A stretch of DNA of 64,000 bases from Bifidobacterium sp. ESL0745 (lineage in GTDB: Bacteria > Actinomycetota > Actinomycetes > Actinomycetales > Bifidobacteriaceae), in NCBI RefSeq assembly GCF_029433335.1, contig NZ_JAQTHX010000001.1, positions 248,001-312,000 on the forward strand, given 5' to 3'. How positions within the stretch are numbered: the first letter of the stretch is position 1; every line of letters begins with the position of its first letter. Shown here piece after piece: positions 13,887-18,383 of this stretch. Under the pieces are notes generated by a model. It made no database searches and was not told the origin of the DNA. It saw only the letters and a list, made by a program, of their open reading frames with translations. Both the position numbers and the translations under genes were made by a program.

Positions 13887-15701
13887 ATGCGTTCGATCGC
13901 AAGCAAGGCCAAACCCTGGAAATTCGTCTCGCGATGCACTGTCATCGGCACGGTGATCGCGCTCATTTTCGTCGTCTGTTTCGGGCAATTGGCCAACCTG
14001 CAGCTGCTCAATGGTCGTGAAATGGCCGAGGCGGCGACGGCAGGCCGCACTTTGAAGGTGCCGGTATACGCCATGCGTGGCAAGATATTGGACACCAACG
14101 GGGCGGTGCTGGCGCAGAGTGTGGAGCGCTATACAATCATCGCGGACCCGAAGGACGCTCAGGAATATGCGCCGGTATGCAACAAGCAGGTAACCAACAA
14201 TTGCGTGATCTATAACGATCCCAGCGACCAATCGAAAGGCTACAAGACCAAGGGGTTGGTCGGTGCGGCGCAAGTGGCCAGGCTGGTCGCGCCGGTGCTG
14301 GGTATGGATCCCTTGGAACTTGGCGGCAAACTCGCAGGCTCCGGCCGATACACCGTCCTGAAAAAGGACGTGGAACCGGCCGCAAAACGCAAACTCGACA
14401 AGCTTGGCTTGGGAGGCATCGTCTACGGCGAGCTCTCGCAGAACCGCGTCTATTCTGACGGCACGTTGATGGGCGCGTTCCTCGGCGGTGTCGATGACAA
14501 GGCCAATGGCGCCTCTGGCATGGAGCAGGTTCAAAACGCCGCGCTTTCCGGCAGCGACGGGTACCGTGTCTACCAGCGGGGCAACAACGGGGTGGAGATT
14601 CCTGGCACGATGACCGATTCGAAATCGGCGCGCAACGGCAGCGATGTCAAACTGACCATAGATTCAGATGTCGATTGGTTCGTCAAAAAGGTCCTGACCG
14701 ATGGCAAGGCACAGTACAATGCGGATTGGGCCATCGCCTGCGTGGTGGACACACGCACGCACAAGATCATCGCGCTTGACGATTCCGACGGGATCCAGGC
14801 CGGCAGCGATCAGGCAAAACTCAATGTCTCCCGTGCAGTATCCGAGACCTTCGAGCCCGGCTCTATCGGCAAGACCTTCTCGATGGCGGGTCTGATGCAG
14901 CATGGCATCCACCAGATGACCGACCGGTTCCAGGTTCCCGACCATCTGAACAAAGACAACCAGATCTTCAAGGATTCCGAGAACCATCCGCTTTCCAATT
15001 GGACTTTGGCCGGCATCCTTCAGGAATCCTCGAACGTCGGCATGGTCATGGCCTCCGACAACTACAAGGACCAGGACCGTTACGACATGCTCACCAAGTT
15101 CGGCATAGGGCAGCCCACGGGTCTGAACCTTCCCGGCGAGTCGCGGGGAACGCTGGCCAATCCCAACGCCTGGGATAAACGCACCCGCGACACCATCCTG
15201 TTCGGACAGGGCTATGCCACCAACGCCCTGCAGCTGACCAACGCCATAGCGAGTGTGGCCGACGGCGGCATCTACCGCAAGCTTTCCATCGTCGATTCGA
15301 TCACCAACGCCGACGGCCATGTCACCACCACACCGCAGGACGAAGGTACGCGTATCCTCGATCCCAATGTCGATTCGCAGCTGATGAACGCCATGGAATC
15401 GTCGGCCGAGCACTATCAGAAAACGGTTGGTATCAACGGTTATCGTATCGCCGGCAAGTCCGGAACCGCCCAGGTCGCCGGGCCGAGCGGTGCCCTCGAC
15501 AGCATCGTCGCCGACTGGACAGGCATACTTCCCGCCGACAATCCCCGTTTTGTGGTCACCGTGGCGATGAAGAACCCGCAGGGCATCTACGGCGGCATCA
15601 CCAGCGGCGCGCTCTTCAAGCAAATCGGTGAATTCCTTATGCAGAAGTACGAAGTCCCCGCCTCAGCTCCGCGCACTGATGCTATCCCTGTTACGTGGTG
15701 A
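13887..15701 (+). CDS. ftsI: Penicillin-binding protein 2/FtsI, septal transpeptidase
   Basis: About 604 residues. An N-terminal membrane anchor (about 17-38) is followed by the PBP dimerisation domain (MRGKILDTNGAVLAQSV) and a transpeptidase domain with SxxK at 326-329 (EPGSIGKTF), SSN at 381-383 (QESSNVGM) and KSGT at 524-527 (AGKSGTAQVAG). It crosslinks septal peptidoglycan together with FtsW. The usual SxxK context in FtsI is EPGSTFK; here the two variable residues are Ile-Gly. The start follows the ftsL stop by one base. No PASTA domains follow, so it is the FtsI type rather than a sporulation or PASTA PBP. Confidence 0.95.
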   Translation: MRSIASKAKPWKFVSRCTVIGTVIALIFVVCFGQLANLQLLNGREMAEAATAGRTLKVPVYAMRGKILDTNGAVLAQSVERYTIIADPKDAQEYAPVCNKQVTNNCVIYNDPSDQSKGYKTKGLVGAAQVARLVAPVLGMDPLELGGKLAGSGRYTVLKKDVEPAAKRKLDKLGLGGIVYGELSQNRVYSDGTLMGAFLGGVDDKANGASGMEQVQNAALSGSDGYRVYQRGNNGVEIPGTMTDSKSARNGSDVKLTIDSDVDWFVKKVLTDGKAQYNADWAIACVVDTRTHKIIALDDSDGIQAGSDQAKLNVSRAVSETFEPGSIGKTFSMAGLMQHGIHQMTDRFQVPDHLNKDNQIFKDSENHPLSNWTLAGILQESSNVGMVMASDNYKDQDRYDMLTKFGIGQPTGLNLPGESRGTLANPNAWDKRTRDTILFGQGYATNALQLTNAIASVADGGIYRKLSIVDSITNADGHVTTTPQDEGTRILDPNVDSQLMNAMESSAEHYQKTVGINGYRIAGKSGTAQVAGPSGALDSIVADWTGILPADNPRFVVTVAMKNPQGIYGGITSGALFKQIGEFLMQKYEVPASAPRTDAIPVTW

Positions 15702-15763
15702 ACAATCATGAGGCAGCAACAGGCAGCGATGGTTCCTGCGTTTGAATTGAGAAGGGCCGAAAC

Positions 15764-16651
15764 ATGAGCGTGGTAAGCGAATCGATTTCACGACGTGTGA
15801 CGTTGGGCTATATCGCCGGCCATTATGGTCTGAATCTTGAACCCAAGTTCGCCGACGGGGTCACCGTCACCTCAATTGCCGACCGCCCCGATTCGGTGCG
15901 TCCCGGAGCCCTTTTCGTCCTTCCTTCCGGAGGCGATTCCTCGCTGCTTTCGCTTGCTGCAAGCCGTGGCGCATACGCGGTGCTGGCACCGCCTGCCTTC
16001 GCGTCGGCGGCGCAATCGGCCGGTGTCCCGGCCCTTCTTGCTACGGTGGATAAGGAGACGATGGGCGCGTTGGCCGCCGATATCGCCGGTACGCCCGCCA
16101 ATACCATGGCGGTATTCGTGGTCTGTGGCCGGGATGACGAGGAAGTACAGGCCGACGTGATCAGGCTCGCCGATTTTCTGCATATGCTCGGCAATCCGGT
16201 GGGCATCGTCAGCGCTTCCGGTTCCAGTTCTCTGGAGCGAGAACTTGAAATGACCTATCCTCTGGGAATCCTTGACATCCAGCACACGCTCGCGGTGTGT
16301 TCCGAAGACGGCGCGGCCGCGATGGTGATCGCCGCCGACACGCAGACCTTACGTCCCGGGGCTCTTGAAAGCGTCAACGTGGATGTGTTGGGTTCCATCG
16401 ACATATTGGACAGGAACCAAGCTGCAGGCACGCTTGAAGCGATGCGGCAGCGCTATGGGTTCTCGATCGATGAGCGCAAGCATCTGGTCACGTGCAACGA
16501 GGAATCCGGATGGTTGGCGGGCCAGACCTCGATTTCCGAGAGCCTTGAGGGCCAGCGCCGGCTTTCCCTGGCGATCGCCATGGCCATGGATGCCGGCGTT
16601 CGCCGCAGCAACATCCGCAACGCCTTGCGTGTTTCCAAGGAATTGCAATGA
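15764..16651 (+). CDS. Degenerate MurE-like protein without ATP-binding loop
   Basis: About 295 residues at the normal murE position between ftsI and murF. Residues about 33-110 follow the MurE/MurF N-terminal fold (VTSIADRPDSVRPGALFVLPSGG, ASRGAYAVLAPP, GALAADIAGTPANTM). The next strand, where MurE has GTNGKTT, reads VVCGRDDEEV, so no P-loop exists. Downstream, FLHMLGNPVGIVSASGS, TYPLGILDIQ, and VLGSIDILDRNQAAGTLEAM still align with MurE central-domain landmarks (TTP, nDHLDyHgtme) but with the catalytic residues replaced. The C-terminal ligase domain is absent. GAAGGG precedes the ATG. It keeps an intact frame, so it looks like a retained pseudoenzyme, not a decaying gene. The functional murE is presumably elsewhere. 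Confidence 0.75.
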   Translation: MSVVSESISRRVTLGYIAGHYGLNLEPKFADGVTVTSIADRPDSVRPGALFVLPSGGDSSLLSLAASRGAYAVLAPPAFASAAQSAGVPALLATVDKETMGALAADIAGTPANTMAVFVVCGRDDEEVQADVIRLADFLHMLGNPVGIVSASGSSSLERELEMTYPLGILDIQHTLAVCSEDGAAAMVIAADTQTLRPGALESVNVDVLGSIDILDRNQAAGTLEAMRQRYGFSIDERKHLVTCNEESGWLAGQTSISESLEGQRRLSLAIAMAMDAGVRRSNIRNALRVSKELQ

Positions 16652-16754
16652 GATTGTTTACGGTTTGTTCGGTCCGTGGTTTACCGATAAACCAGACGGC
16701 GCTTCCCTCAAGGGGCGCATGGAAGAATACGGCAACATCAAAAGGCGGCATACG

Positions 16755-18383
16755 TTGAGCAACAAGACATCCGAGGCATCACAGCCGGTGAGCACCATGA
16801 TGCCGATGACGGTCGCGGAAATCGCGGATGCGGTGGATGGCCGCTTGGTGATTGGAGCGGGAGACACGCTGCCGCAAGGGGCGGTGGCAACCTCCACCGT
16901 AAGCGATTCCCGGCAGATCAGCGAGGGATCGGTGTTCGTTGCCATCCCCGGCGAGCGCGTGGACGGCCATGATTTCGTGGCCGGTGCCGCAGCTGCCGGC
17001 GCTGTGGCCGCCTTGGTCGATCACGTGGTACAGGGAGCGGACGATACAGCGCAGATCGTGGTGGAAAACACCGTCGCAGCCTTGGGACGCTTGGCGCAGC
17101 ACAATATCGTGCGTCGGCGAGAGCTTGGGACGGACTTTACCGTCATCGGCATCACCGGTTCGGTCGGAAAGACGACGACCAAGGACCTGCTGCATTCGCT
17201 GATGGCGCAGCTTGGGCCGACTGTGGCTCCCGTCGGTTCGTTCAACAACGAAATAGGCCTGCCGCTTACCGCGTTGAAGGTCGGCGAGCATACACGCTTC
17301 TTCGTCGCCGAAATGGGGGCGAACCACGTCGGCGAAATCGCAGGGCTCACGCGCATCGTGCCTCCTGATCTTGCTGTGGTCCTCAAGGTCGGCGTCGCTC
17401 ATTTGGGGGAGTTCGGGTCCGTTGAGCGCATCGCCCAGGCCAAAAGCGAGATTGTGCAAGGTCTGGTGACCGGTGGCATTGCTGTGCTGAACGCTGACGA
17501 CAAGCGCGTGGCAGCGATGACGCGATTCGCGCCCGGTGAGGTGCTGTGGTTCGGGCTGGACGGTGAGGCCAGGCCGGATGTCGGCAGGATGAGCGCCACT
17601 GACATCACCGTCGACGCCTTGGACCGTCCCAGTTTCACTCTGCTTGCCCCGAACGGCGAGCGTGCGCGGGTGAATCTGGGTATTGGCGGGTCCCACAATG
17701 TCATCAACGCATTGGCTGCGGCCACGGTCGCCAGCCATTTTGGCATGCCGATCGCACAAATCGCCGAAGGGCTGGGCGATGTCAAGCATATCAGCCCGCA
17801 TCGCATGGCCGTCTCGACGGTTGACCTGGGTAAGGGCGCCGGAACGTTTACGCTTATCGACGATTCGTTCAACGCGAATCCCGATTCCATGCGTGCCGGA
17901 CTCGACGGGCTTGCCCGCTGGGAATCGGTTGACAGGAACGCAGACGACGGCGTGCGAAGCGAGGCGCAAAATCGCCCGAACCCCTATCGTGTCGCTGTAT
18001 TGGGCGCGATGCTCGAACTGGGGGACGAGGAGATGGATCTGCATCGGCGCACGGGTGCCTACGCCGCCTCGTTGGGGTTGGATGAAATCATCGCCGTGGG
18101 CAACGAAACCGACAAGCACTTCGACGCGCTCGCCTCCGCTTTGGCGCAGGGGGCGCAGCAGGCCCAAGACGAGGTTCCCGGAACGCCGGGGCGTACCCCC
18201 GTCGTGGTGCAATGGGTACATAGTGCCGTTGAGGCCGAGAGGCTGGTCGCGGATATCGTCCGCCGGCATCAAGACACCGTCGTGCTGCTCAAAGGTTCGC
18301 ATTTTTCGGGGCTTTCCGCCCTGGCGGAGCGTTGGGCGCGCATGGAAAAGCAAACGCAACAGGAAGTGGAGCCGGAACATTGA
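16755..18383 (+). CDS. murF: UDP-N-acetylmuramoyl-tripeptide--D-alanyl-D-alanine ligase MurF
   Basis: About 542 residues with the proposed TTG start, longer than the usual 450-480. MurF adds D-Ala-D-Ala to the UDP-MurNAc-tripeptide. The N-terminal domain starts MTVAEIADAVDGRL, with DSRQISEGSVFVAIPGERVDGHDF; the ATP loop is GSVGKTTT (about 135-142); FFVAEMGANHVGEI and SHNVINALAA mark the central domain; DDSFNANPDSM and AVLGAMLELGD mark the C-terminal domain. The start is uncertain: TTG 16755 has AAAGGCGG seven bases upstream, ATG 16719 has AAGGGG, and ATG 16797 has little. The frame continues open far upstream inside the MurE-like gene, which is overlap without coding signal. It overlaps mraY at its stop. 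Confidence 0.93.
   Translation: MSNKTSEASQPVSTMMPMTVAEIADAVDGRLVIGAGDTLPQGAVATSTVSDSRQISEGSVFVAIPGERVDGHDFVAGAAAAGAVAALVDHVVQGADDTAQIVVENTVAALGRLAQHNIVRRRELGTDFTVIGITGSVGKTTTKDLLHSLMAQLGPTVAPVGSFNNEIGLPLTALKVGEHTRFFVAEMGANHVGEIAGLTRIVPPDLAVVLKVGVAHLGEFGSVERIAQAKSEIVQGLVTGGIAVLNADDKRVAAMTRFAPGEVLWFGLDGEARPDVGRMSATDITVDALDRPSFTLLAPNGERARVNLGIGGSHNVINALAAATVASHFGMPIAQIAEGLGDVKHISPHRMAVSTVDLGKGAGTFTLIDDSFNANPDSMRAGLDGLARWESVDRNADDGVRSEAQNRPNPYRVAVLGAMLELGDEEMDLHRRTGAYAASLGLDEIIAVGNETDKHFDALASALAQGAQQAQDEVPGTPGRTPVVVQWVHSAVEAERLVADIVRRHQDTVVLLKGSHFSGLSALAERWARMEKQTQQEVEPEH

Follow-up and report, generated by a model that had tools for sequence, protein, structure and literature searches.

Bifidobacterium sp. 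ESL0745 carries, at the murE position of its division and cell wall (dcw) cluster, a gene whose product retains the fold of the first two domains of MurE but has no ATP loop, catalytic motifs, or ligase domain. We call this product pMurE (pseudo-MurE, 295 aa). Its gene lies at 15764..16651 on the + strand of the 64,000-nucleotide stretch that we analyzed (hereafter, the window; C1:248001-312000 of contig NZ_JAQTHX010000001.1). Our best overall explanation, to which we assign a probability of roughly 0.4, is that pMurE is the dead native dcw MurE, kept as a noncatalytic docking adaptor. In this scheme, an unlinked MurE of another type would have taken over the chemistry, and the native dcw murE would have lost catalysis and stayed in place. 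The remaining protein would retain the contacts of actinobacterial MurE with the division machinery (FtsW/FtsI and the Z-ring proteins FtsZ and SepF, with the paralogue RodA perhaps standing in for a missing FtsW), and it would tie wall-precursor synthesis by MurF and MraY to the membrane synthase. Docking, and the choice of partner, are what we infer.

pMurE keeps the MurE fold without the catalytic parts

We read 60 loci and dropped one with a true, P-loop-bearing MurE (L063) and three second reads (L064 to L066), then aligned the remaining 56 pMurE sequences with 20 intact MurE sequences from other families. The P-loop, TTP, E.SSH, DH.D.H, and LPG...HG motifs all have roles in MurE, and those of the middle-domain motifs are catalytic. 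Each of these motifs is complete in 0/56 pMurE. Among the outgroup MurE, the P-loop GTNGKT (tested as GT[NK]GKT) and TTP are complete in 20/20, and E.SSH, DH.D.H, and the LPG...HG of the N-terminal domain are complete in 18/20 each. Single letters of the motifs are left in pMurE: the first glycine of the P-loop (52/56), the proline of TTP (55/56), and, rarely, the P-loop lysine (5/56). A further lysine, present in all 20 outgroup MurE at the position of window residue 220, is outside the four commonest pMurE letters there. In the window protein, VVCGRDDEEV (residues 119 to 128; 16118..16147, + strand) stands where MurE has its ATP P-loop GTNGKT, and across the alignment of 56 the replacement stretch is variable and frequently acidic.

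A structure model of pMurE has the fold of the MurE N-terminal and middle domains and ends at residue 373 of Mycobacterium tuberculosis MurE. With approximate boundaries taken from the VIA-align ranges, the N-terminal domain spans residues 12 to 108 (15797..16087, + strand) and has lost the LPG...HG loop of the outgroup MurE, and the shortened middle domain spans residues 109 to 292 (16088..16639, + strand) with the DH.D.H stretch deleted. No pMurE of the 56 extends more than 28 residues past window residue 292, too few to hold a ligase domain. The fold is retained at approximately 30% identity. Family models barely register the protein: a Pfam scan of the window pMurE gave zero matches, and NCBIfam gave weak MurE similarity (6.5e-8 for a MurE-MurF model and 3.2e-6 for TIGR01085, murE), the TIGR01085 score of 26.3 bits being far below the curated cutoff of 257.3 bits. 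In 16 divergent members, a Pfam scan found no Mur-ligase family, returning three families in one member each, a chance-like pattern; PADLOC gave no match.

The frame starts with ATG and is open through 295 codons, and a ribosome-binding-like AGAAGG stands 8 nt 5' of the start (15750..15755, + strand). The sequence confirms what an earlier note on this DNA had observed, namely, a P-loop replaced by VVCGRDDEEV, a missing ligase domain, an intact frame, and a ribosome site. No sigma-70-like promoter was found at 15600-16850, where 0.4 would be expected by chance. Judging from sequence, ligase activity is expected to be absent. Among 120 of 489 database matches listed, the names given to pMurE include "UDP-N-acetylmuramyl peptide synthase" and "hypothetical protein"; the former, in use in many bifidobacteria, implies an activity that the pMurE sequence does not support.

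Conservation in pMurE extends to residues of its own. Y71, A116, H140, N144, and P145 are found in 56/56, R159 in 55/56, and Q173 and D182 in 52/56; H140, N144, and P145, which differ from the MurE consensus, belong to the stretch LHMLGNP (residues 139 to 145; 16178..16198, + strand). H140, N144, P145, R159, Q173, and D182 sit in the segment after the MurE P-loop, as might be expected if pMurE were a sensor, a protein that regulates MraY, MurF, or division and whose former cleft accommodates a nucleotide or wall precursor. We consider a sensor improbable, given that the P-loop, LPG...HG, TTP, and E.SSH are complete in no member and that the P-loop replacement varies and is often acidic. With complete LPG...HG, TTP, and E.SSH motifs absent from all 56 relatives, the scaffold binding UDP-MurNAc-peptides that the earlier note had suggested is unsupported.

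Purifying selection on pMurE in most of the family

pMurE matches were detected in 177 of 189 family genomes, in 11 of 16 genera, and in all 161 good genomes (≥90% complete, ≤5% contaminated), with no internal stops among the matches listed. A profile built from divergent members gave 22 matches (~8000 candidates scored), of which 4 were named, all 4 from Bifidobacteriaceae. The cluster order in the window is rsmH-ftsL-ftsI-pMurE-murF-mraY-murD-ftsW-murG-murC-ftsQ. The upstream neighbor ftsI lies at 13887..15701 (+ strand) and the downstream neighbor murF at 16755..18383 (+ strand), for which the chosen start is a TTG with AAAAGGCGG upstream and an alternative ATG stands at 16719. Over the 56 loci, ftsI is upstream in 52 and murF directly downstream in all. 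Gardnerella-type pMurE (P0092, P0102, P0119) carry a low-complexity insert of >100 residues after the DVLG strand.

The median ratio of nonsynonymous to synonymous substitution rates (dN/dS) was 0.134 for pMurE (range 0.03 to 0.64), compared to 0.126 for ftsI and 0.159 for murF, calculated from 222 nonindependent pairs among 34 loci with pMurE dS of 0.05 to 1.5. Throughout most of the family, the protein is constrained by purifying selection. The description of the gene as a MurE-like pseudoenzyme under selection is supported by the structure, the family-wide conservation, the dN/dS values, and the separate complete MurE described below. Because pMurE fills the former murE slot, it might be imagined as a remnant without protein function that persists solely as a spacer or translational coupler of ftsI and murF; we find this hardly credible, the least probable of the roles considered here. 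Selection at the amino acid level speaks against it (median dN/dS 0.13, no internal stop among the matches listed, and a fold kept at ~30% identity), and so do four sister-genus loci in which ftsI directly adjoins murF.

An unlinked MurE appears to do the wall chemistry

The earlier note had raised the possibility of a second complete murE with a P-loop elsewhere in the genome, and we found one at C1:331217-332938, approximately 19 kb past the window end. Its P-loop reads GTKGKTT. It reaches 869 bits with NF001129 (cutoff 762), a model whose name denotes a diaminopimelate-adding MurE; its score against TIGR01085 is 252 bits, slightly below the cutoff of 257, and its third-best hidden Markov model is an L-lysine-adding MurE (373 bits). 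With a threshold of E 1e-40, relatives of this unlinked MurE were detected in 175 of the 189 family genomes, including 161/161 good ones, and the P-loop GTKGKTT is present in 17/17 relatives inspected. At E 1e-60, 26 of the order's 297 genomes contain a relative, and every one of the 26 belongs to the family. A TIGR01085 search at E 1e-60 gave a best match of 360 to 479 bits in each of 54 other-family genomes and 232 to 259 bits in four family genomes; the window genome falls under this threshold because its match is split. The unlinked MurE appears to do the wall chemistry in bifidobacteria.

In at least 18 family genomes, two neighboring working-MurE matches lie in separate long open frames approximately 1.7 kb apart (for example, G072:C1:303577-306137 and G094:C11:35534-38029). 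The paired copies perhaps differ in amino acid preference.

Origin of pMurE

A first outgroup set had been picked by similarity to pMurE; we therefore redid the outgroup comparison with 30 loci picked by TIGR01085 score. An intact MurE stands between ftsI and murF in 27 of the 30; of the remaining three, one is without ftsI and two have mraY with no detected murF downstream. The pMurE profile scores the 30 outgroup MurE at a median of 45 bits (range 8 to 79); for 16 bifidobacterial MurE, the figure is 17 bits (range 5 to 22). In the MurE tree, pMurE forms a clade (100/100) that groups with dcw MurE (94/96). These data support descent of pMurE from the native actinobacterial dcw MurE. A duplication of the working MurE is disfavored by the tree (94/96), the profile scores, and the gene position; an approximately unbiased (AU) test does not reject a grouping of pMurE with bifidobacterial MurE (p = 0.164 and 0.423), and we prefer descent from dcw MurE because of the profile scores and gene position.

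A single origin of pMurE is most likely, judging from the FtsI tree, in which 20 pMurE-bearing rows form one clade (Shimodaira-Hasegawa-like approximate likelihood ratio test 100; no bootstrap) and four rows from genera g4, g10, and g16, with ftsI adjoining murF and no pMurE between them, are sister to it. Two more g4 genomes (G010 and G012) have murF with neither ftsI nor pMurE beside it. Genus g10 has ftsI adjoining murF (L161, L303), and its MurE, which has a GTDGKT loop, is located elsewhere; at L160 and L161, this MurE lies between ftsW and murG, beside two further open reading frames.

Rate covariation with wall and division proteins

We compared branch-specific rates of dcw proteins over 41 taxa (the window genome and 40 hand-picked from 177 for diversity) and over the 32 of these with a MurE sequence in hand. 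Over the 32 taxa, FtsI-FtsW tops the 55 pairs (+0.58), and Mur ligases covary with one another (MurC-MurD 0.49, MurF-MurE 0.46, MurD-MurE 0.44). The strongest correlations of pMurE are with FtsI (rho 0.45) and FtsW (0.45), followed by MraY (0.26), FtsQ (0.23), MurF (0.17), MurG (0.12), MurD (0.11), MurE (-0.09), and MurC (-0.13). The trend over 41 taxa is the same and weaker (MraY 0.27, FtsW 0.24, FtsI 0.24, FtsL 0.21, MurF 0.10). As a control, both taxon sets place all the other fts genes with division and put the mur genes and rsmH in the opposite group; MraY joins the division group at 32 taxa and is undecided at 41. The covariation of pMurE with division proteins, positive in both taxon sets but modest, is a lead toward these proteins.

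The same rates bear on two rival partners. The idea that pMurE assists the unlinked working MurE, as a chaperone or as the partner that the earlier note had also raised, might draw on the co-occurrence of both genes in 161/161 good genomes; with both near universal in the clade, this co-occurrence carries no information. The rate covariation with MurE (-0.09) speaks against it, and covariation points to division proteins instead; we regard such a partnership as quite improbable.

A serious rival, although in our judgment an unlikely one, is that pMurE serves the cytosolic precursor enzymes, MurF above all, as a scaffold or allosteric subunit, at the place that MurE occupies in MurE-MurF fusions. 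murF is directly downstream in 56/56 loci, including four Aeriscardovia-like loci without an upstream ftsI, and the internal-branch rate covariation with MurF is 0.30. The natural Bordetella MurE-MurF fusion, for which the available part of PMC6420597 describes an elongated structure, provides a precedent, and the fusion structure 8f5d is the best PDB match of the profile. However, inherited gene order may reflect ancestry instead of contact, the all-branch rho with MurF is only 0.17 and 0.10 where most Mur proteins covary together, and the M. tuberculosis Mur ligases, in the available part of PMC3605390, did not interact with one another in a fragment complementation assay. No pMurE-MurF fusion was found in the two long frames checked; these (in G064 and G072) are overlapping frames. 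Fusions were not searched for elsewhere, and the length limit of the database listing would have passed over fused proteins of about 850 aa. Of the partnership with MurF proposed in the earlier note, the adjacency stands, and the rate covariation is weak. Covariation counters MurF as the only partner.

Weighing a docking role

That pMurE kept a docking role after the chemistry was taken over is suggested by the contacts of the M. tuberculosis enzymes: by fragment complementation, MurE, like the other Mur ligases, interacts with FtsZ, FtsW, FtsQ, Wag31, and SepF, according to the part of PMC3605390 available. Several observations weigh against this role or its assignment to division proteins. 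In that same partial source, all four Mur ligases contact division proteins, so MurE is not special in M. tuberculosis. The single correlations over 41 taxa are weak, with uncorrected p values of 0.02 to 0.05 for MraY, FtsI, and FtsW. The split between division and Mur proteins blurs when terminal branches (FtsI 0.32, MurF 0.20, MurC 0.20, FtsW 0.13) or internal branches (FtsW 0.34, MurF 0.30, FtsL 0.26, FtsI 0.24) of the 41 taxa are taken alone. The grouped rho for pMurE does lean toward division, at 0.24 with FtsL/FtsI/FtsW/MraY versus -0.03 with MurF/MurD/MurG/MurC (bootstrap 95% interval of the difference, 0.06 to 0.52; 1.25% of 400 resamples ≤0), but the gene groups were chosen after the correlations were known. 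Sister genera g4, g10, and g16 are without pMurE; genomes of these genera and of g7 and g9 are incomplete (≤89%), and pMurE presence cannot be judged for g7 and g9. Finally, reduced genomes of genus g12 keep pMurE beside murF without ftsL, ftsI, or ftsW in the cluster.

Genus g12 comprises seven genomes of 0.6 to 0.9 Mb, which we term Aeriscardovia-like after a protein labeled Aeriscardovia sp. that shares 87% identity with the pMurE of G179, one of the seven. In two of these genomes (G174 and G177; loci L156 and L157), the cluster order is rsmH-pMurE-murF-mraY-murD-murG-murC, with no space for ftsL/ftsI between rsmH and pMurE and no ftsW. No ftsI was found within 1.5 kb upstream of pMurE in four g12 loci; ftsL was not searched for outside the cluster. 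Genome-wide, six of the seven have one FtsW/RodA-type gene and two transpeptidases, one of them beside the RodA-type gene; the seventh (87% complete) has no FtsW/RodA-type gene and one transpeptidase. FtsZ (in two genomes as pieces below the cutoff) and SepF are present in 7/7. Among four g12 genomes (6 pairs), dN/dS was 0.047 to 0.122 for pMurE and 0.111 to 0.119 for murF, values that are rough because dS exceeds 1 in four of the 6 pairs.

Because these genomes keep pMurE without FtsI and FtsW in the cluster, FtsW/FtsI cannot be its sole partner, and a remaining partner (FtsZ, SepF, RodA, MraY, or MurF) is therefore favored. Division in g12 may be run by the elongation synthase, given the single RodA-type gene with its neighboring transpeptidase and the remaining FtsZ and SepF.

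Comparison with known systems and implications

M. tuberculosis MurE (2XJA/2WTZ) and actinobacterial dcw MurE share with pMurE the N-terminal and middle-domain fold and the ftsI-murF slot, and they are its nearest profile relatives; unlike them, pMurE has no P-loop, complete catalytic motif, or ligase domain and scores far under the TIGR01085 cutoff. MurT, a subunit of the lipid II amidating enzyme, has a Mur-ligase fold and another role. The genome also encodes a MurT-like protein (195 bits, against a cutoff of 800), which differs from pMurE in having a GTNGKTTT loop and in its location elsewhere. The Bordetella pertussis MurE-MurF fusion (PDB 8f5d), as described in the available part of PMC6420597, resembles the pMurE locus in tying MurE to MurF, but both of its halves are enzymes, whereas pMurE is separate and without catalytic motifs.

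Plastid PAP11 is the closest known case of a MurE with a structural role, going by the accessible portion of PMC12681378. PAP11 differs in host, partners, and setting, and its tobacco chain has a GTNGKTTT loop and also aligns with the MurE ligase domain. By analogy with PAP11 in RNA polymerase, pMurE could be a moonlighting structural subunit of another machine. We think this very unlikely: PAP11 touches the polymerase partly via the C-terminal domain (same source), which pMurE does not have, and the neighbors of pMurE in the clusters inspected are wall and division genes. Among the matches listed from open-licence papers, we found no literature on such a MurE pseudoenzyme, and the portion of the main text available from a transposon-directed insertion site sequencing (TraDIS) study of Bifidobacterium breve (PMC5514069) is silent on murE, murF, and ftsI.

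Mur ligases have been proposed, in the available parts of PMC6420597 and PMC3605390, to work within complexes and to touch division proteins in addition to catalyzing their reactions. Because these enzymes are essential, it is difficult to pull the two roles apart. Evolution has seemingly split them here, with chemistry in one gene and fold and contacts in another, so that a noncatalytic role of MurE becomes testable via pMurE in a bifidobacterium. Tentatively, and with a little less confidence than we place in the docking adaptor, we suggest that a Mur ligase has become a dedicated nonenzymatic part of the division machinery, its chemistry displaced by the unlinked MurE and docking alone kept. 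If this is true, actinobacterial MurE would have a second, separable function in division.
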